Shown here piece after piece: positions 1 to 5,945 of a stretch of DNA of 5,945 nt (position 1 is the stretch's first letter; each line of letters begins with the position of its first letter). The position numbers and the translations under genes were made by a program. The notes under the pieces were generated by a model. It did not search any database. It had not been told where the DNA came from and was given only the letters and a program-made list of their open reading frames with translations. This stretch comes from Alphaproteobacteria bacterium (GTDB taxonomy: Bacteria > Pseudomonadota > Alphaproteobacteria > GCA-2731375): the NCBI GenBank assembly GCA_030746295.1, contig JASLMY010000274.1, positions 1 to 5,945 of the forward strand, written 5' to 3'.

Positions 1-2124
1 GCCCGACCGCCAGAACAATCGCCGGCAATCGGGCGACAACCAATCACGGACCTCAAGTCCGACAGACTGCTAGCATGCCATGAAGAGGCTTATGGCCTGG
101 CGCCGGAGTTGTCGGAGACCCGCTACGGCCTGGCGACGGTGCTGCAGGAAGCCGGCGACAACGCCCGCGCGAAGGAGATCGTCGAGGCGCTGATCACCGA
201 GCGACCCGACTATGCCGAGGCCTACGTTACGCGCGGCAACGTCCATGCCGCGCTGGATCGACACGAGGACGCGATTCGGGACTATCAAACCGCCATCGGC
301 CTGAAGCCGGGCCTCGTCGTCGCGCACTACAATCTGGGACACGCCCGCCGTCAAAGCGGCCGTCTGCAGGACGCCAAGGTCAGCTTCGAGGCCGCGCTCG
401 GCCTCGATCCCGAGTTGGCCAGCGCCTACAACGGCCTCGGCGCCCTCTGCCAGCAGTTGGCCGAGCATGAGAACGCCGTCGAGCACTTCGACAAGGCGTT
501 GGCGATCAACCCGGGACTGGGCGACGCCCTCAACAACAAGGCGATATCACTGCAGATGCTGGGTCGCTACCAGGAAGCGGTCGAGGCCTACAAGGCGTAC
601 ATCGCCGAAAACCCCGGCCGGGGCGAGGTCTACTTCAACTTCGGCGGCCTGCTTCAGACCCTGGAGCAGTGGGAGCCTTCCCTGGTCGTCCTCAGGGAGG
701 GCCTGGCACAGGATCCGGGCTGCCTCGACATCTACCCCTTCTATCTGCATGCCCTGATGCAGCTCTGCGATTGGAGCAATCTCGACGCGCTGATTCACAA
801 GCTGGTCGAGATCACGAAGACGCAACTGGCCGCGAAGACACGGGTCTCGTTCACGCCCTTCGCCCTGCAGAGCCTGCCGGGCGAGGTTCCGATGGCGCTC
901 AGGCGCCTGGTCGCGGAAGCGATTTGCGAGCGGATCTCGGACTCGGTGACGCAGTCCCGCCAATTGGCGAATTTCAGCTACAACAAGGGGCCTCACAGGC
1001 AACGCCTGACGATCGGCTACGTCTCGCCCGACCTTCGCGCCCACAGCGTCGCCGTCGCCTTTCGCGGCATCATGGAAAATCACGACCGCGATCGCTTCAC
1101 CTACAACGCCTATTCGCTGCATCCCGGGCCGCCGGACCCTTTCGGCCAATATTTTCGGTCTGTCTTCGACAGCTTCGTCGACGCCGCGCCGCTCAGTCAC
1201 GAGGAGGCGGCCCGGCGGATCAACGACGATGGCGTCGATATTCTGGTCGACCTGGCCGGCCATACGCGGGGGACGCGGCTCGAGATCTTCGCCCTCAGGC
1301 CGGCGCTGGTGCAGGCGCACTACCTCGGCTATTCGGCGACCATCGGGGCCCGATTTCTCGACTACTTGATCACCGACCACCAGCAGGTTCCGGCCGCCGA
1401 GCGCAGCCATTTCACGGAGCAACTGGTCTATCTGCCCGACAGCTTCATGGCGGCCCGCCGGGCCGACGTCGACGCGACCCCGCCGAGCCGCGCCGAAGAG
1501 GGCCTGCCCGAGGATGGCTTCGTCTTCGCCAACTTCAACAAGCACTACAAGCACGAGCCGAAGATGTTCGGGCTGGCGATGCGGCTCTTGAAGCAGTGGC
1601 CCGGCAGCGTCTATTGGCTACGCCACGGCACACCGCAAAGCGACGGCAACCTCAGACGCGAGGCCGCCGCGCGCGGCGTCGATCCCGAGCGCCTGATCTT
1701 CGCCGAGAACAAGTCGCACCCCAAGCACTTGGCCCGCCTCAGCCTGGCCGACCTGGCGCTCGACAACTTCTACCACGGCGGTGGCGTCACCACCGTGGAT
1801 GCGCTCTGGGTCGGGCTGCCGGTGCTGAGCCTGGCCGGGCAGACGCCACAGTCGCGCAACGGCGCCAGTCTCTTGAGCGCCATCGGCATGGCGGAGCTGA
1901 TTGCCGACCGCACCGAGGACTTCGAGGCCAAGGCCCGGCAGCTGCTCGGTGATCCGACGCGCCTCGCCGACCTGCGGCGGCGCCTGCTCGAGAACCGCGT
2001 CACGCATCCGCTGTTCGACATCGCCCGGCTGACCCGAAAGCTGGAGCAGGCCTACGAGATGATGTGGGAAGTCCACGCCGCCGGCGATTCGCCGCGGATG
2101 ATCGAGGTGCCGCGGGACGACTGA
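1..2124 (+). CDS. TPR-containing glycosyltransferase family 41 protein (OGT/SPINDLY-like), 5' end outside window
   Basis: Probable cytoplasmic protein O-glycosyltransferase that moves a sugar from a nucleotide donor to Ser/Thr of target proteins. Counting residues from the TTG at 109, about six TPR units span residues 3-204 (Y/A..G....A...Y..A....P pattern). The GT41 catalytic region follows at about 297-655. It shows GYVSPDLRAHS (His312, equivalent to the OGT catalytic-site His), ILVDLAGHTRG, HYLGYSATIGARFLDYLITD, FNKHYKHEP (Lys481, the UDP-contacting Lys position), and a donor loop HGGGVTTVDALWVGLPVL (Asp564), then SRNGASLL. The TTG at 109 has no properly spaced Shine-Dalgarno sequence. The frame stays open through codons 1-108, and the residues just before 109 (HEEAYGLAPELSE) read as the end of another TPR helix, so translation almost certainly starts upstream of the window. 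The donor (UDP-GlcNAc or GDP-fucose) and targets cannot be read from sequence; bacterial members are often linked to surface or flagellar glycosylation. It converges on the minus-strand RHH gene with about 30 bases between the stops, and no clear terminator hairpin is visible there. Confidence 0.9.
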   Translation, partial: ARPPEQSPAIGRQPITDLKSDRLLACHEEAYGLAPELSETRYGLATVLQEAGDNARAKEIVEALITERPDYAEAYVTRGNVHAALDRHEDAIRDYQTAIGLKPGLVVAHYNLGHARRQSGRLQDAKVSFEAALGLDPELASAYNGLGALCQQLAEHENAVEHFDKALAINPGLGDALNNKAISLQMLGRYQEAVEAYKAYIAENPGRGEVYFNFGGLLQTLEQWEPSLVVLREGLAQDPGCLDIYPFYLHALMQLCDWSNLDALIHKLVEITKTQLAAKTRVSFTPFALQSLPGEVPMALRRLVAEAICERISDSVTQSRQLANFSYNKGPHRQRLTIGYVSPDLRAHSVAVAFRGIMENHDRDRFTYNAYSLHPGPPDPFGQYFRSVFDSFVDAAPLSHEEAARRINDDGVDILVDLAGHTRGTRLEIFALRPALVQAHYLGYSATIGARFLDYLITDHQQVPAAERSHFTEQLVYLPDSFMAARRADVDATPPSRAEEGLPEDGFVFANFNKHYKHEPKMFGLAMRLLKQWPGSVYWLRHGTPQSDGNLRREAAARGVDPERLIFAENKSHPKHLARLSLADLALDNFYHGGGVTTVDALWVGLPVLSLAGQTPQSRNGASLLSAIGMAELIADRTEDFEAKARQLLGDPTRLADLRRRLLENRVTHPLFDIARLTRKLEQAYEMMWEVHAAGDSPRMIEVPRDD

Positions 2125-2154
2125 TCGCCCCCGCGCCGGCCACGCCCCTTGCCG

Positions 2155-3150
2155 TCAGTCGGCGAGATAAGCGGCGATCGATCCCATCAAGATGTCTTGG
2201 CCGGTGCGGCCCAGCCGGGTCCGCGCCGCCAGCAGGCGTTCATGCAGATCGGGCTCGAGGCGGATCGTCAGGGCCAGCCGATTGCCCTGCTCGCCGAGCG
2301 ACACGCTTTCCATCTGCGCCTTGATCGCCGACTGATCGTCGGCCGAGATCAGGTCGGCAACGCCTTGCTCGCGCAAGACCTGACCCAAGACCTCGCTCGG
2401 CGTCGACGTCGTCTCGCCCCGCTCCTGCCGCCATGCGGCGACGCACCAGCCCGTCGGCAGAGTGAAGAAGTGCAGATCGGTCGGTAGCTGCACGCCGGAC
2501 TTCGACGAAGAGGCAGCGAGAACGGCGGCGCGCGCATCGGGTCGCAGGACCTCGACCGTTGCCGTCCCTGCGTCAGCGCTTTCGCTCTCGCTCCGGTCCA
2601 GGCGGTCGAGGCAGTCGATCAGGGCCCGCACCACCAGCACCTGGAACGAGCAGCCGAGCCGGCGGCGCACCGCCAGCAATTGGACATGCTCGTCGGGCCT
2701 GAGCCTGAGGGTGACGGCCCGCCGGCGCACCCGGAGGGGCGCCGGCTCTGCCGCCGGCTCGACCGCGGGCACCACCATCAGAGGCTGACCGGCACCGGAG
2801 ACGTCGCGCATCATCGGCACCCGATGCATCAGCCCCGCCCTGACCGACGTCAGCGGCAGCACGGTCGAGGTTCTCGGTACCGCGGTGCCGTCCGGCGACA
2901 GCGCCATGGCCTTCTCCGCGAGGCGCTGGCGTTCGGCCCGATAGGCGTCGCGTCCGGCCGATATCAGATCGCCCGTCAGGTCGGCGGAGTGGGCCAGATT
3001 CTGCCGATCCGGTGTCATCAGGCGCGGCGCCAATCTCGCGGCCGACGGCTCGTCGACCTGATGGTCGGCGGGCGGCGGCTCGAGCGACGGCGTCGGTTCT
3101 ATGCTGCGGGGAACCAACGCGGCCGTCAGCGAGGCGAATCCCTTGTCCAT
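2155..3150 (-). CDS. Tandem ribbon-helix-helix DNA-binding protein, putative ParG-like partner of the upstream ATPase
   Basis: This 331-residue protein is not one I can name, but its architecture is legible. Residues 1-140 are rich in Pro, Ala and Arg and probably mostly disordered, with a possible short helix at the very N-terminus (MDKGFASLTAALVPRS). Residues 142-186 and 290-331 are two copies of an RHH unit: a beta strand (AVTLRL / ALTIRL), helix A beginning PDxH and ending RxRLG, a turn, and a hydrophobic helix B. About 16 of 37 aligned positions are identical between the copies. RHH proteins normally dimerise; two copies in one chain could form an intramolecular pair, as in F-plasmid TraY. 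Residues 187-289 are an unrecognised linker. The start ATG has AAGGGG six bases upstream. The gene lies 52 bases behind the ATPase gene on the same strand, so co-transcription is likely. ParG, the type Ib partition partner, likewise has a flexible N-terminus and a C-terminal RHH, but is far smaller and has one unit. Role as centromere-binding or adaptor protein and as autorepressor is inference. Confidence 0.82.
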   Translation of the reverse strand: MDKGFASLTAALVPRSIEPTPSLEPPPADHQVDEPSAARLAPRLMTPDRQNLAHSADLTGDLISAGRDAYRAERQRLAEKAMALSPDGTAVPRTSTVLPLTSVRAGLMHRVPMMRDVSGAGQPLMVVPAVEPAAEPAPLRVRRRAVTLRLRPDEHVQLLAVRRRLGCSFQVLVVRALIDCLDRLDRSESESADAGTATVEVLRPDARAAVLAASSSKSGVQLPTDLHFFTLPTGWCVAAWRQERGETTSTPSEVLGQVLREQGVADLISADDQSAIKAQMESVSLGEQGNRLALTIRLEPDLHERLLAARTRLGRTGQDILMGSIAAYLAD

Positions 3151-3156
3151 CTCATG

Positions 3157-3162
3157 CCCCTT
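3157..3162 (-). promoter_or_regulatory. Ribosome binding site of the tandem RHH gene
   Basis: AAGGGG on the minus strand lies six bases before the ATG at 3150 and supports that start. Another ATG begins at 3155 on this strand, between this site and the chosen start, but it is in a different frame. Confidence 0.6.
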
Positions 3163-3202
3163 GGTCGATGCGGTTCTTCGGTCCTCAGCGTGTCCCGGAT
3201 CG

Positions 3203-4429
3203 TCAGCTGCTGGTGCGGCGGCCGAAGGCCGGCGCGCGCCGCTCGACGCCCGATGGCGGCGTGCCGTCCTTGCGGCGCCGGTCGGGCCCGAAATAGGTCG
3301 GCGTCTTCACCGCCCGGCGCTGGCCGAAGAACTCCTCGGCGGTCGGCGTCTTGGGCCGCGGCGTCGGAGCCGTCTCGGTGGAAGGCTCCGGTGACTCTTC
3401 CACTCTGGGCTCGGGCGGTGGGCTTTCCATCAGCTTCGGTGACGGTGCCTCGGCGGCAGGTGGCGGTGCCGCGGCGACTGGCGGGGCCGGCTCGGCGGCC
3501 GGTGCCGGCGGCGGCGCGACGACTGATGGGACCGGCTCCGGTGGCGCGACGGCCGGCTCCGCCGGCTCCGGTGGCGTGGTGGCGGCCGGGCGCGGCGGCG
3601 GCGCGGCGGGCGCCGGCGGGGCCGCGGGCTGCTCCGCTGCCGGAGCCGGCTCCTCATGCGCCCATTCGGAGATCTTCTCGATGCGCTCGCCGATATAGCT
3701 CCAAAGCTCGGCCACTTCCGCCGACGACTTAGAGCCTTCGTTCACCTCCATCACGGTGCGGCCATCGGTCATCGAGGCGGCGAAATCGACCCTATTGTGG
3801 ATGAAGGTCGGCGCCACCGTGCCGTGCTGCGACAGCGCCAAGGCCGCCTCCGAGGTGATCTTGGCCCTCGACGCGGCGCTGTTCAGAACGAAGACCATGG
3901 GTTTGCGATGCGATTCCACGATGTCGATCGTCGCCCCGACGGCACGCAGGTCGTGCGGGCTGGGCCGGGTCGGGATGCAGACCAGATCGGCATGGCGCAC
4001 CACCTCGCCGATCGCCGAGGTCGCCGCCGGCGGCGTGTCGATGACGATGGTCTTGGCACCGAGCGCGCGCAGCTCTTCGATGTCCTGGTGGATGTTCTCG
4101 ACATCGCTGACCTTGAGGATGAGGCCGTTGTCCTCACGGGCGTAGCGCCATTGGGCGAGGCTGCGCTGCGGGTCGGTGTCGATCACCGCCACCGGGCCGG
4201 CGCCGGACAGCTCGGCCGCGATCGCGATATGGCCGGACAGCGTGGTCTTGCCGGAGCCGCCTTTTTGCGACGCGAATACGATGACGTTGGTGTTGTTGGA
4301 CTCCGTGTCCTGATACCTCGTCTCTTGCCGTCCCCGATGCTCGGCAGTCGGCGCCCTTCCAACGCCGCCCCGGCGCAACCCTGCCGCCTCGTGGACGGCG
4401 CGCCGATCGTTACCTCGCCATCTCAGCAT
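3203..4429 (-). CDS. ParA/MinD-type P-loop ATPase with long Pro/Ala-rich C-terminal tail
   Basis: Deviant Walker ATPase of the ParA family; such proteins dimerise on ATP, bind DNA or membrane, and position plasmids, chromosomes or protein clusters. Counting from the ATG at 4429, the ATPase core is at about 48-255. It has Walker A KGGSGKTT (signature Lys56, Lys61), an A' region IDTDPQ (83-88), Walker B TIVIDTPP (Asp131), CIPTRPSPHDLRAVG (151-165) and DGRTVMEVN (222-230). Core length and the lack of an N-terminal helix-turn-helix fit small type Ib-like ParA proteins. Residues 258-365 are almost all Pro, Ala, Glu and Val. The tail ends with a charged tip (EEFFGQRR, then TYFGPDRRRKDG, then VERR). 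The start is uncertain: only ATG 4429 and TTG 4378 exist in frame before the core. TTG 4378 has GAGG eight bases upstream, while ATG 4429 has only a G-rich stretch. Homologues I recall begin a few residues before the VIVFASQKGG strand. The tandem RHH gene follows 52 bases downstream, in the order of a parF-parG cassette. ATPase identity is near certain; the cargo is unknown. Confidence 0.92.
   Translation of the reverse strand: MLRWRGNDRRAVHEAAGLRRGGVGRAPTAEHRGRQETRYQDTESNNTNVIVFASQKGGSGKTTLSGHIAIAAELSGAGPVAVIDTDPQRSLAQWRYAREDNGLILKVSDVENIHQDIEELRALGAKTIVIDTPPAATSAIGEVVRHADLVCIPTRPSPHDLRAVGATIDIVESHRKPMVFVLNSAASRAKITSEAALALSQHGTVAPTFIHNRVDFAASMTDGRTVMEVNEGSKSSAEVAELWSYIGERIEKISEWAHEEPAPAAEQPAAPPAPAAPPPRPAATTPPEPAEPAVAPPEPVPSVVAPPPAPAAEPAPPVAAAPPPAAEAPSPKLMESPPPEPRVEESPEPSTETAPTPRPKTPTAEEFFGQRRAVKTPTYFGPDRRRKDGTPPSGVERRAPAFGRRTSS
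3335..3652 (-). repeat. Low-complexity Pro/Ala-rich coding tract in the ATPase tail
   Basis: Dense GCC/CCG/CCC-type codons give about 106 residues dominated by Pro and Ala with scattered Glu and Val. On the plus strand it reads as GGC/GGT-rich DNA. There is no strict repeat unit; it is compositional. It most likely forms an extended flexible spacer between the ATPase core and the Arg-rich C-terminal tip. Such tracts commonly vary in length between strains. Confidence 0.8.
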
Positions 4430-4507
4430 GGCCGCGCCCCGCGACCCTGCGCCGCCGCCCCTGCAAAGGCGCGTTCTACCAAGTTGCGCCGATACGGGCC
4501 GGATTGC

Positions 4508-4536
4508 AATTTAAAAATGGCGTCAACTGCCGTCAA
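4508..4536 (-). promoter_or_regulatory. Predicted sigma-70-type promoter for the ATPase/RHH unit
   Basis: On the minus strand, TTGACG (4531-4536) is followed by a 17-base spacer and TAAATT (4508-4513). The -35 box matches consensus at five of six positions and the -10 box at four of six, at ideal spacing. Transcription would start near 4501, giving a leader of about 72 bases to ATG 4429 or about 123 bases to TTG 4378. The -10 box lies in the most A/T-rich patch of the intergenic region. Confidence 0.6.
4517..4536 (-). repeat. 10-bp-period direct repeat over the -35 region, candidate operator
   Basis: Two adjacent copies, TTGACGGCAG and TTGACGCCAT, share eight of ten positions and sit exactly one DNA turn apart. 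The upstream copy contains the predicted -35 hexamer; the second lies in the spacer. RHH regulators often bind short repeats spaced by about one turn, so this is a plausible autoregulatory site for the downstream RHH protein. The repeat is visible; the binding role is inference. Confidence 0.4.
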
Positions 4537-4772
4537 ACAACCGAGCACGACGCCGGCCGGGCGCCTGCACGGGCGCGAAAATCGTTGAATCTGCGAGAGG
4601 TTTTGATCGCAAGTCGGCATGTCACGTCTCCCTTCGGTAGCTCCGCCGCCATCCACCGCCGGTTCGGCGGCTCGAGGCCGGTAGCTTTGCGTCCCGCCGT
4701 TTCCGACGGTTTGCCGTTTCGTGGGCGCGACAGGCATCGACGGCACTTTATCAATCCGGCCGTCGAAGACCC

Positions 4773-4809
4773 GAATCCCATGGCACCCGACGTCGGGTGC
4801 CATTGATTC
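4773..4809. repeat. Perfect 24-bp palindrome with bulged extension
   Basis: Positions 4780-4803 are a perfect inverted repeat with 12-bp arms (ATGGCACCCGAC and its complement) and no spacer. Outside it, GAATC (4773-4777) pairs with GATTC (4805-4809), leaving two unpaired bases on one side and one on the other, so each arm is about 17 bp. It lies 58 bases past the stop of the allantoinase-type gene and about 245 bases upstream of the predicted ATPase promoter. In RNA it would make a strong hairpin, but no U-run follows on either strand, so it is not a textbook terminator. It may end the allantoinase-gene transcript, bind a dimeric regulator, or act as a partition site. Confidence 0.75.
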
Positions 4810-4866
4810 TAGGTAGTTATTTCCACCCCGCGTTCAACCCCGCGGAGTATCGTCGGGGCGGCGGCC

Positions 4867-5778
4867 TCAGGCACTTTGGTAGGGGTGGGTTGCGATCCCG
4901 TGCCGGGCGATCTCTTCGCGCCGGCAGACCCAGACGTCGTCGACGGCCCGGATGTGGTCCAGGAAACGCTGCAGGCCGCTGGCCCGCGCCGGATGGCCGG
5001 CAATACGCATGTGCAGGCCGATCGACATCATCTTCGGCTGCCGGGCCCCTTCCTCGTAGAGCAGGTCGAAGGCGTCCCTCAGGTAACGGAAGAAGTCCAA
5101 GCCATGGCCGATGAAGCCGCGGGCGAACTTGGTGTCGTTGTTGGTCAAGGTATAGGGAACGACCAGGTGCGGCCCCTGCCCCGTCATCACCCAATAGGGA
5201 AGCTCATCGTTGTAAGCATCTGAATCATAGATGAATCCGCCTTCTTTCATCAAGAGCCTTCGGGTGTTGACGCTGGGTCCGTAGCGACAGTACCAACCCA
5301 ACGGCCGGGCCCCGACGCTGGCCTCGAGCGAGGCCACCGCACGGCGGATATGCTCGGCCTCCTCGGCTTCGTCGAGGCGGAAATGCTCGACCCAGCGCCA
5401 GCCGTGGCAGCAGACGTCGTGGCCGGCCGCGGCGATCGCCTGGGCGGCCTCGGGATTGCGCTCGAGCGCCATGGCGCAGCCGAAGACCGTCAGCGGCAGG
5501 TCGCGCTCGGCGAAGAGCCGCATCAGGCGCCAGAAACCGACCCGGCTGCCGTACTCGAACATGCTCTCCGCGCCGAGGTCGCGCTCGCCGCGCGGCACCG
5601 GCGAGGCCGGGCTCTCGGTCAGGTTGGCCTCGGTGAAGCCGTCGCCCTCGGCAATGGAGTATTCCGAGCCTTCCTCGTAGTTGACGACGAAGTTGACCGC
5701 CAACCGCGCCCCGCCCGGCCACTTCGGATCTGGCGGGTTGGCGCCGTAGCCGACGAAGTCTCTCGGATGCGTGTCCAT
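4867..5778 (-). CDS. puuE: PuuE-type allantoinase (polysaccharide deacetylase family)
   Basis: Probable cytosolic allantoinase that hydrolyses allantoin to allantoate in purine/ureide breakdown; family members are metal-independent relatives of NodB-type deacetylases. The 303 residues from ATG 5778 match the usual family length and its typical opening (RDFVGYGANPPDPKWPGGA). Other hallmarks are VNFVVNYEEGSE (28-39, where NodB enzymes have the DD metal motif), ESMFEYGSRVGFWR (71-84), GHDVCCHGWRW (119-129, where the second metal-binding His of HxxxH-type motifs is absent), NTRRLL..EGGFIYDSDAYND (171-191), DFFRYLRDAFDLLYEEG (228-244), GLHMRIAGHPARA (254-266) and a C-terminal VWVCRREEIARH. An in-frame ATG at 5856 would add 26 residues of non-family-like sequence; 5778 is preferred because AGGAGG precedes it. 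No uricase, transthyretin-like or decarboxylase gene of the pathway is visible here. A paralogue with a related substrate cannot be excluded. Confidence 0.85.
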   Translation of the reverse strand: MDTHPRDFVGYGANPPDPKWPGGARLAVNFVVNYEEGSEYSIAEGDGFTEANLTESPASPVPRGERDLGAESMFEYGSRVGFWRLMRLFAERDLPLTVFGCAMALERNPEAAQAIAAAGHDVCCHGWRWVEHFRLDEAEEAEHIRRAVASLEASVGARPLGWYCRYGPSVNTRRLLMKEGGFIYDSDAYNDELPYWVMTGQGPHLVVPYTLTNNDTKFARGFIGHGLDFFRYLRDAFDLLYEEGARQPKMMSIGLHMRIAGHPARASGLQRFLDHIRAVDDVWVCRREEIARHGIATHPYQSA

Positions 5779-5787
5779 CTTCTCCAC

Positions 5788-5793
5788 CCTCCT
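5788..5793 (-). promoter_or_regulatory. Ribosome binding site deciding the allantoinase start
   Basis: AGGAGG on the minus strand lies nine bases before ATG 5778, with a second GGAG three bases before it. It favours 5778 over the in-frame upstream ATGs at 5856 and 5811. Confidence 0.7.
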
Positions 5794-5893
5794 GTCTGAG
5801 CCCGGCCCCATGATCGCGCGAAGCCCGGGCGACGGCAAATCCCGCTCTTGCCCCAAACGGCGGTGGCGGGCATCCTCGGGCCGACGAAGACGG

Positions 5894-5899
5894 AGGAGG
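5894..5899 (+). promoter_or_regulatory. Ribosome binding site of the right-edge gene
   Basis: AGGAGG lies five bases before the ATG at 5905 in the context GGAGGAGGAAACC. It is one of the best Shine-Dalgarno matches in the window and is the main evidence that a gene starts here. Confidence 0.75.
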
Positions 5900-5904
5900 A
5901 AACC

Positions 5905-5945
5905 ATGGCCGACAGCGACTTCTGCAAGGTCGAGCGGGAGGGCCC
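5905..5945 (+). CDS. Start of a gene cut by the window edge, possibly an enoyl-CoA hydratase/isomerase
   Basis: Fourteen residues can be read, MADSDFCKVEREGP, the last being Pro whatever the missing third base is. The perfectly placed AGGAGG makes a real start very likely. The pattern of a short polar start followed by VEREGP is typical of the first beta strand of crotonase-fold enoyl-CoA hydratases, where REGPV..I.LNRP is common. That assignment rests on a handful of residues and is only suggestive. The gene is divergent from the allantoinase-type gene. Confidence 0.65.
   Translation, partial: MADSDFCKVEREG

Follow-up and report, generated by a model that had tools for sequence, protein, structure and literature searches.

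The ParF/ParG pair of plasmid TP228, a type Ib partition system, is among the described systems closest to the locus analysed here. As set out in parts of PMC5393062, it combines a small ParA protein, which carries the sequence KGGxGKT and lacks an N-terminal helix-turn-helix (HTH) motif, with a partner that has a disordered N-terminus and a ribbon-helix-helix (RHH) domain. According to the same parts of that paper, the disordered segment of ParG becomes helical when it inserts into the dimer interface of ParA, where Arg19 may serve as an arginine finger. Here, we describe a gene pair of the same layout in a stretch of 5,945 nucleotides (nt) from an alphaproteobacterium (contig JASLMY010000274.1, positions 1 to 5,945; the window from here on). 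We propose that it is probably a type Ib-like pair for partition or positioning, borne on chromosomes in its relatives and controlled by cyclic di-GMP (c-di-GMP). The new and surprising part is the c-di-GMP riboswitch on a ParA pair. A link of this kind was not found in titles and abstract openings of the open PMC literature, a scope outside which lies the published target list of the GGC-variant riboswitches, which may name the gene; we therefore speak of a link that was not found and not of one absent from print. The terms "c-di-GMP riboswitch" and "chromosome partitioning" came together in one paper only, PMC3627812, and in the parts of it covered they stand in unrelated places.

The window pair is unlike ParF/ParG in that its relatives are chromosomal, its ParA protein ends in an FGRR-type tail, the N-terminal motif of its partner is a different one, a c-di-GMP aptamer lies upstream and no parS site is known. 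The partner is also longer, with a median of 183 codons in 71 related loci and 331 codons with two RHH units in tandem in the window. Passages of PMC9178275 describe two further points of comparison. Archaeal SegA/SegB, set beside our pair by description only, likewise consist of a chromosomal ParA-like ATPase and an RHH DNA-binding partner, and the orphan proteins PpfA, ParC and McdA share the chromosomal ParA fold, in their case with a cargo other than a plasmid; chemotaxis, carboxysomes and cellulose are the processes named for orphan ParA proteins in parts of PMC9178275 and PMC5393062. However, McdA has the Walker A sequence SGGQGKT without the signature lysine, as opposed to KGGSGKT in the window, PpfA and ParC serve chemotaxis clusters, and the partners of orphan ParA proteins are not described as RHH proteins in the passages of PMC9178275. 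The genes next to the window pair code for a glycosyltransferase of family 41 (GT41) and a deacetylase rather than for chemotaxis proteins. The features of the pair and its upstream region, all on the minus strand except for the palindrome, which has no strand, are as follows, ORF standing for open reading frame and pLDDT for the predicted local distance difference test score.

3203 to 4429, minus strand: ParA-type ATPase with the deviant Walker A motif KGGSGKT and a ParF-like core at residues 47-253 (library profiles, fold comparison)
3206 to 3346, minus strand: conserved peptide (FFGQRR...YFGPDRR...RRAPAFGRR) that follows a disordered linker at the C-terminal end of ParA (alignment)
2155 to 3150, minus strand: partner protein of 331 residues (ORF, alignment, structure prediction)
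3094 to 3150, minus strand: N-terminal motif of the partner (MDKGFASLTAALVPRSIEP), a divergent form of FASLTAGLLARKGEAxPA and presumed ParA-docking or ParA-activating peptide
2578 to 2727, minus strand: RHH unit 1 of the partner, residues 142-191 (alignment, profile, predicted fold)
2341 to 2478, minus strand: conserved beta-hairpin/helix module of the partner between the RHH units, residues 225-270 (alignment of the window's clade; low pLDDT of about 46-61)
2158 to 2283, minus strand: RHH unit 2 of the partner, residues 290-331 (alignment, profile, predicted fold)
4632 to 4725, minus strand: c-di-GMP-I aptamer (Rfam family c-di-GMP-I-GGC, RF03167)
4423 to 4620, minus strand: putative leader ORF of 65 codons, preceded by GGGAG and beginning 12 nt past the aptamer
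4780 to 4803: perfect palindrome of 24 bp (ATGGCACCCGACGTCGGGTGCCAT), 54 nt upstream of the aptamer, a candidate operator or centromere-like site

Transcription along the minus strand would run through the palindrome, the aptamer, the leader ORF, parA and the partner gene. The stop codon of the leader ORF overlaps the ATG of parA (ATGcTGA), and 52 bases separate parA from the partner gene. The initial annotation had described a ParA-type ATPase with a tandem-RHH partner in parF-parG order and with this gap, which we confirm on the minus strand; it had overlooked the riboswitch upstream of the two genes.

In agreement with a small ParA of type Ib, the window ParA has a deviant Walker A motif with the signature lysine, and no HTH family matched the protein, the stretch before the core being modelled at low confidence. 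ParF was its closest relative by profile and by fold and its best structural match. All 23 members of the alignment matched the NCBIfam model NF041546 (ParA_partition), with a best E-value of 3.1e-50. The Pfam MipZ model was matched with 34.1 bits, above its gathering threshold of 20.7, with higher scores for CbiA and AAA_31. MipZ works with the chromosomal ParB protein and is not known to have a dedicated partner gene. The window ParA fits MipZ less well by fold (19.3 compared to 24.4 for ParF) and has a dedicated RHH partner encoded downstream; MinD, Soj and BcsQ were rejected due to lower scores. The start of the ParA protein is ambiguous. Most of the closest relatives begin 6-8 residues before VIVFASQKGG, and at the position of their ATG the window reads ACG GAG TCC (4298-4306, residues 42-44). 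Translation might begin at the ATG at 4429, at a TTG at codon 18 or at an unusual start codon, or a base might differ from the true sequence.

The partner is encoded downstream of parA and, again as in type Ib systems, is predicted to have a disordered N-terminus in addition to RHH folds. The clade of the window has 13 members, of which 12 show two RHH units and one (P0013) breaks off before unit 2; the tandem arrangement was seen only in this small clade. The hairpin/helix module (HFFTLPSGWxVAAWRQxRG...TPSEVLG) also aligns only within the clade and has no match in Pfam or NCBIfam. TraY, the tandem-RHH protein of the F-plasmid relaxosome, is a conjugation accessory protein and is not known to have a ParA partner. 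Relatives of the window partner were found neither among 104 pattern stretches from a single-sequence search of genome contigs nor among 13 stretches from an alignment search of viral contigs. No tblastn match at 1e-5 was obtained in 72,556 plasmid records, a weak negative, as the short plasmid partners were missed in the same way.

To define the family, we used the best 80 named alphaproteobacterial loci listed, in which ParA is 50-65% identical in the best segment. By their titles, these loci come from sphingomonads, Maricaulis, Parvularculaceae, Sneathiella, Rhodospirillaceae and many unplaced alphaproteobacterial metagenome-assembled genomes. In 71 of the 80 loci, the next ORF after parA (-4 to +50 nt) codes for a protein that matches the strict motif L[LIVM][AVIS][RSTGP]KG.A close to the N-terminus, usually in the form FASLTAGLLARKGEAxPA. 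With an RHH profile seeded by 25 of these 71 partners, one RHH unit was recognized in all of them but two (L029 and L034). A mechanical count of ORFs gave RHH in 64 of 80 loci at E < 1e-3, together with nine RHH-like ORFs elsewhere in the loci. Among the nine loci without the strict motif, three (L010, L059, L076) lack an ORF after parA in the sequence examined, the motif is visible by eye in two (L001, in an ORF starting LARKGAARPA, and L021, ILARKGEA), and it is divergent in the other four (L020, L030, L032, L043). In a test independent of ParA, we searched 289 genomes of the class with a DNA pattern for LLARKGxAxP, which had 23 matches compared to 12 for the reversed pattern; all of the 23 except one, in G199, are immediate neighbours of a strong ParA match. 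The same 289 genomes gave 54 strong ParA matches, all of 294 bits or more (the next had 223), in 44 of them. Nine genomes (G016, G018, G115, G116, G133, G186, G201, G269, G293) have two or three of them. One pair (L003) lies on the complete 4.44 Mb chromosome AP024629.1, and chromosomal neighbours are conserved within groups of loci. The pair is therefore a member of a broad, mostly chromosomal family and not an isolated oddity. Whereas the initial annotation had presented a stand-alone atypical architecture, only the tandem RHH is specific to the clade, and its concern that homologues of the two genes might rarely be adjacent is answered by the 71 loci with a motif partner directly downstream.

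Outside the family, the closest cousins are plasmid partition cassettes. The window ParA matched 2957 plasmid records, and 11 of the 30 listed were opened; in the rows listed, the ParA core is 49-57% identical. Cassettes near NF041546 (Deefgea, Comamonas, Thiothrix, a 10-kb E. coli plasmid and others) resemble the window pair in the ParA core, a related motif and a small RHH-type partner, but their ParA proteins have about 207-217 residues without a tail. An ORF of 78-114 residues directly follows parA in all 11 records, three times unannotated. The strict motif is present in four of these partners and a looser form in seven (for example ASLTSGLVAKKGQAAPA). The RHH profile matched six at E < 1e-5, one further partner matches Pfam RHH_10 (29.8 bits, cut-off 27) and the others are RHH-like by eye only. 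As the plasmid partition cassettes share the layout, the family is of ParF/ParG-like design.

These cousins raise the question of whether the window itself holds an ordinary plasmid partition cassette or the remnant of an integrated plasmid, all the more as an annotated replication gene lies near the pair in 6 of the 11 plasmid records and 5.9 kb leave the window's own replicon undecided. We regard this as highly improbable. No replication gene was found in the window among its ORFs or by a Pfam scan, and a tree computed from 104 ParA cores separates the nine plasmid forms kept in it from all others (SH-aLRT, an approximate likelihood ratio test, 95); this tree was a quick one without bootstrap and with long-branch warnings, from which P0022 and the plasmid forms L136 and L137 were left out. 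The ParA tail contains FG[RKQ][RK] in 66 of 80 relatives and in the last 20 residues of none of the 11 plasmid forms. The complete chromosome and the conserved chromosomal neighbours argue in the same direction, so that the chromosomal branch is separate from the plasmid forms and mostly has its own C-terminal tail. The chromosomal location claimed in the initial annotation thus stands for the relatives, on which our placement rests, while the window is too short to decide it for itself; a replication initiator beside homologues, which the initial annotation had named as the sign of a plasmid cassette, occurs only in the plasmid cousins on the separate side of the tree.

The aptamer in the window matches Rfam c-di-GMP-I-GGC with 60.7 bits (gathering threshold 59, E 6.8e-13), on the strand of parA and upstream of it. 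Riboswitches of the families RF01051 and RF03167 (GEMM-I) share with it the aptamer fold and the ligand-contacting positions: columns 12, 39 and 104 of the aptamer alignment are invariant in 24 of 24 sequences, columns that we take to be the ligand-contacting G20, A47 and C92 in Vc2 numbering. An Rfam scan of ten loci identified c-di-GMP-I aptamers upstream of parA in four (two in L001, and one each in L010, L024 and L038) and none in the other six. For wider searches, we built a model, R1, from six parA-linked aptamers including that of the window. On the window, R1 scored 90.5 bits, its own sequence being part of the model, and found no second aptamer, the next best match having 11.7 bits. 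Over the 80 loci (1.36 Mb, both strands), 14 matches in 13 loci were strong (63.9-96.7 bits, compared to 17.1 for the next), and each of them shares the strand of parA and closely precedes it; in L033, only about 250 nt upstream of parA were covered and an aptamer there could have been missed. Ten of 30 parA loci taken from the 54 strong ParA matches of the class survey (L104-L133) also have an aptamer, and none was found in the plasmid loci searched (L134-L138). The 289 class genomes, some of which are also among the 80 loci (e.g. G129, G086, G275), yielded 42 aptamers, spread over 24 genomes; 11 of the 42, at 10 loci, precede a strong ParA. A set of 19 genomes selected because they have the aptamer gave 37, of which 22 are upstream of parA by coordinates, including the first-of-tandem aptamers of G299 and G147 at a distance of about 550-600 nt from parA. 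In nine of these genomes the parA-linked aptamer is the only one found. In the tree, the 13 riboswitch loci and the window all belong to one of two chromosomal branches (57 rows), over the deep forks of which they are scattered with eight changes; the other branch (38 rows), which includes the sphingomonads, has no riboswitch locus. This fits an old association of aptamer and parA that was lost several times, and independent gains are also possible.

Tandem c-di-GMP-I aptamers lie about 500 nt apart at L001:9339-10016 and L124:2169-2793, the first before a small ORF whose product, judged by eye, resembles a membrane protein and the second directly before parA. Aptamers away from parA in the same genomes (L180, L183, L174, L169, L171, L178, L182) precede genes that, again judged by eye, resemble those for an RTX-type adhesin, a Tad-type pilus protein, a chemoreceptor and, about 1 kb downstream, Sel1-repeat proteins. 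Upstream of the 22 aptamers examined besides that of the window, palindromes with arms of at least 9 are limited to L008 and L014 and differ in sequence from that of the window.

Of the 24 aligned aptamers, 11 are followed after 10-16 nt by the first in-frame start codon of parA. Because a ribosome-binding site with AGGAG abuts the aptamer in these cases, the arrangement suggests control at the level of translation. For the remaining aptamers, parA starts 47-203 nt behind, and farther for two first-of-tandem aptamers; some of these loci have a short leader ORF in between, like the window. One could argue that the window aptamer serves the leader ORF only, or is a remnant, and has no control over parA, which begins at least about 200 nt behind it and could be transcribed from a sigma-70-like site in between that would bypass the aptamer. 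Given the 11 ribosome-binding sites directly after aptamers and the recurrence of the aptamer-parA link on several deep branches of the tree, we think that such an uncoupled aptamer is quite unlikely.

The distant parA start and the sigma-70-like site belong to a set of observations that weigh against a type Ib-like pair under c-di-GMP control. The motif of the window partner reads ALVPRS in place of LLARKG, and the window ParA reaches 168.5 bits with NF041546, below the cut-off of 180 bits. Upstream of parA, no aptamer was found in 67 of the 80 relatives, among them all of the 38-row clade, and 31 of the 42 aptamers in the 289 genomes lie away from a strong ParA. Model R1, unlike the Rfam matches, is biased toward parA-type aptamers, which makes the parA-linked share of 11 in 42 an upper guide. 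Complementary 5' and 3' aptamer flanks that could pair and mask the ribosome-binding site are present, for example, in L111, L024 and the window, but this pairing was not better than with swapped flanks and 580 of 5000 permutations were as low, so that we make no claim on an ON or OFF switch. Lastly, the window has no centromere-like repeat array, only the single perfect palindrome and a 12-bp repeat in two copies.

We nevertheless consider a type Ib-like partition or positioning pair under c-di-GMP control the probable function and propose the following mechanism. Binding of c-di-GMP to the 5' aptamer would change access to the adjoining ribosome-binding site, or translation of the leader ORF, and the state of the aptamer would set the amount of ParA and partner. 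ParA would bind ATP, dimerize and ride on the nucleoid. The partner would grip the cargo through its RHH fold, each chain forming a single pseudo-dimer in the clade of the window, and two chains pairing as a dimer elsewhere. The N-terminal motif of the partner, in a disordered stretch, would dock in the ParA dimer interface and stimulate ATP hydrolysis, such that the cargo trails a ParA gradient. The contribution of c-di-GMP would be one of dosage, with the level of the pair tracking the motile or sessile state. The cargo is most likely DNA bound by the RHH fold, either the pair's own locus or another chromosomal site, and a protein cargo is possible. The motif is N-terminal, short and rich in small and hydrophobic residues, its arginine is mostly kept (IARR, LARKG, VPRS), and it is the part that plasmid and chromosomal partners have in common. 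By analogy, we infer that it may play a role toward ParA like that of the ParG tail.

RHH proteins are commonly repressors, and the 24-bp palindrome above the aptamer could be an operator. The pair might thus be a transcriptional regulator, in which an RHH repressor acts with ParA as a co-regulator, similar to FleN/FlhG or a large ParA, on its own and neighbouring genes. As the N-terminal motif is common to plasmid cassettes, a role in ParA activation would be expected instead. No shared operator stood out either: in 25 sphingomonad-type upstream regions, no 8-mer was clearly above shuffles (8 loci versus a maximum of 7). We consider a regulator very unlikely.

In L034, a 648-codon ORF (2981-4924, plus strand) carries the motif, a SPOR domain (E 4e-14) and, as judged by eye, a transmembrane segment; no RHH-like ORF was found elsewhere in the locus. 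Since the motif is here fused to a transmembrane segment and SPOR instead of RHH, this suggests that it could be a portable ParA-docking module. Going one step further, one might speculate, and we do so tentatively, that the family is a c-di-GMP-gated platform riding on the nucleoid: a single ParA family would move the peptide ASLxxGLLARKGxAxP on varied adaptors (a single RHH, a tandem RHH and, once, a membrane-anchored SPOR protein), the riboswitch would set the dosage, and the decision between motile and sessile life would reprogram what is positioned.

The survey reveals a large chromosomal branch of plasmid-type ParA/RHH modules, part of which is wired to c-di-GMP by RNA. If our proposal is true, a partition-type motor would be a direct output of the signal for motility and attachment, the swim-or-settle decision would be coupled to a ParA machine, and the riboswitch would offer a clean handle for finding the cargo. 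The pair can be tested in Sphingomonas, Novosphingobium, Erythrobacter, Maricaulis and Sneathiella, the 13 riboswitch loci lying outside the strains with genus names.

Two genes flank the pair in the window.

1 to 2124, plus strand: glycosyltransferase with tetratricopeptide repeats (TPR) and a GT41 domain, similar to O-GlcNAc transferase (OGT), convergent with the partner gene (Pfam)
4867 to 5856, minus strand: polysaccharide deacetylase, upstream of the pair and on the same strand

The neighbourhood bears on a further explanation, namely that ParA positions a protein cargo, such as a flagellar, chemotaxis, envelope or division assembly, and that DNA binding by RHH serves only autoregulation or as an anchor. 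The TTAA-N7-TTAA spacing, which we take to be that of the CtrA consensus, occurs 14 times within 400 bp upstream of parA, out of 26 in all loci and with 0.6 expected (N5, 0; N6, 1; N8, 1), a count that carries less weight because a single group of related loci supplies seven of the 14 and because an AT-rich control, AATT-N7-AATT, is also raised (9 of 27). These sites are found in 14 of the 80 loci, for example L007, L017, L021, L042, L063 and L064, and not in the window. Together with c-di-GMP, the CtrA-like sites would suit the regulation of motility, and the motif in one of 80 loci on an apparent membrane protein with SPOR (L034) would suit a protein cargo. In L032 (11609-16163) and L043, the pair lies beside a convergent GT41 gene, 49-52% identical to that of the window, followed by flagellin and FlbT genes. 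The RHH fold in 69 of 71 partners speaks against a protein cargo, as does the finding that the flagellin and FlbT of L032 match only L032 and L043 among the 80 loci, and we regard this explanation as unlikely. In sphingomonad-rich loci (e.g. L052:9042-10439, L080:8712-9755), a downstream neighbour cluster of 27 loci and an upstream cluster of 25 loci on the opposite strand had TPR plus SPOR and Sel1 plus SPOR, respectively, in the one representative scanned of each, which again would suit a protein cargo. Taken with the flagellar genes, these neighbours are consistent with a link to motility or the envelope.

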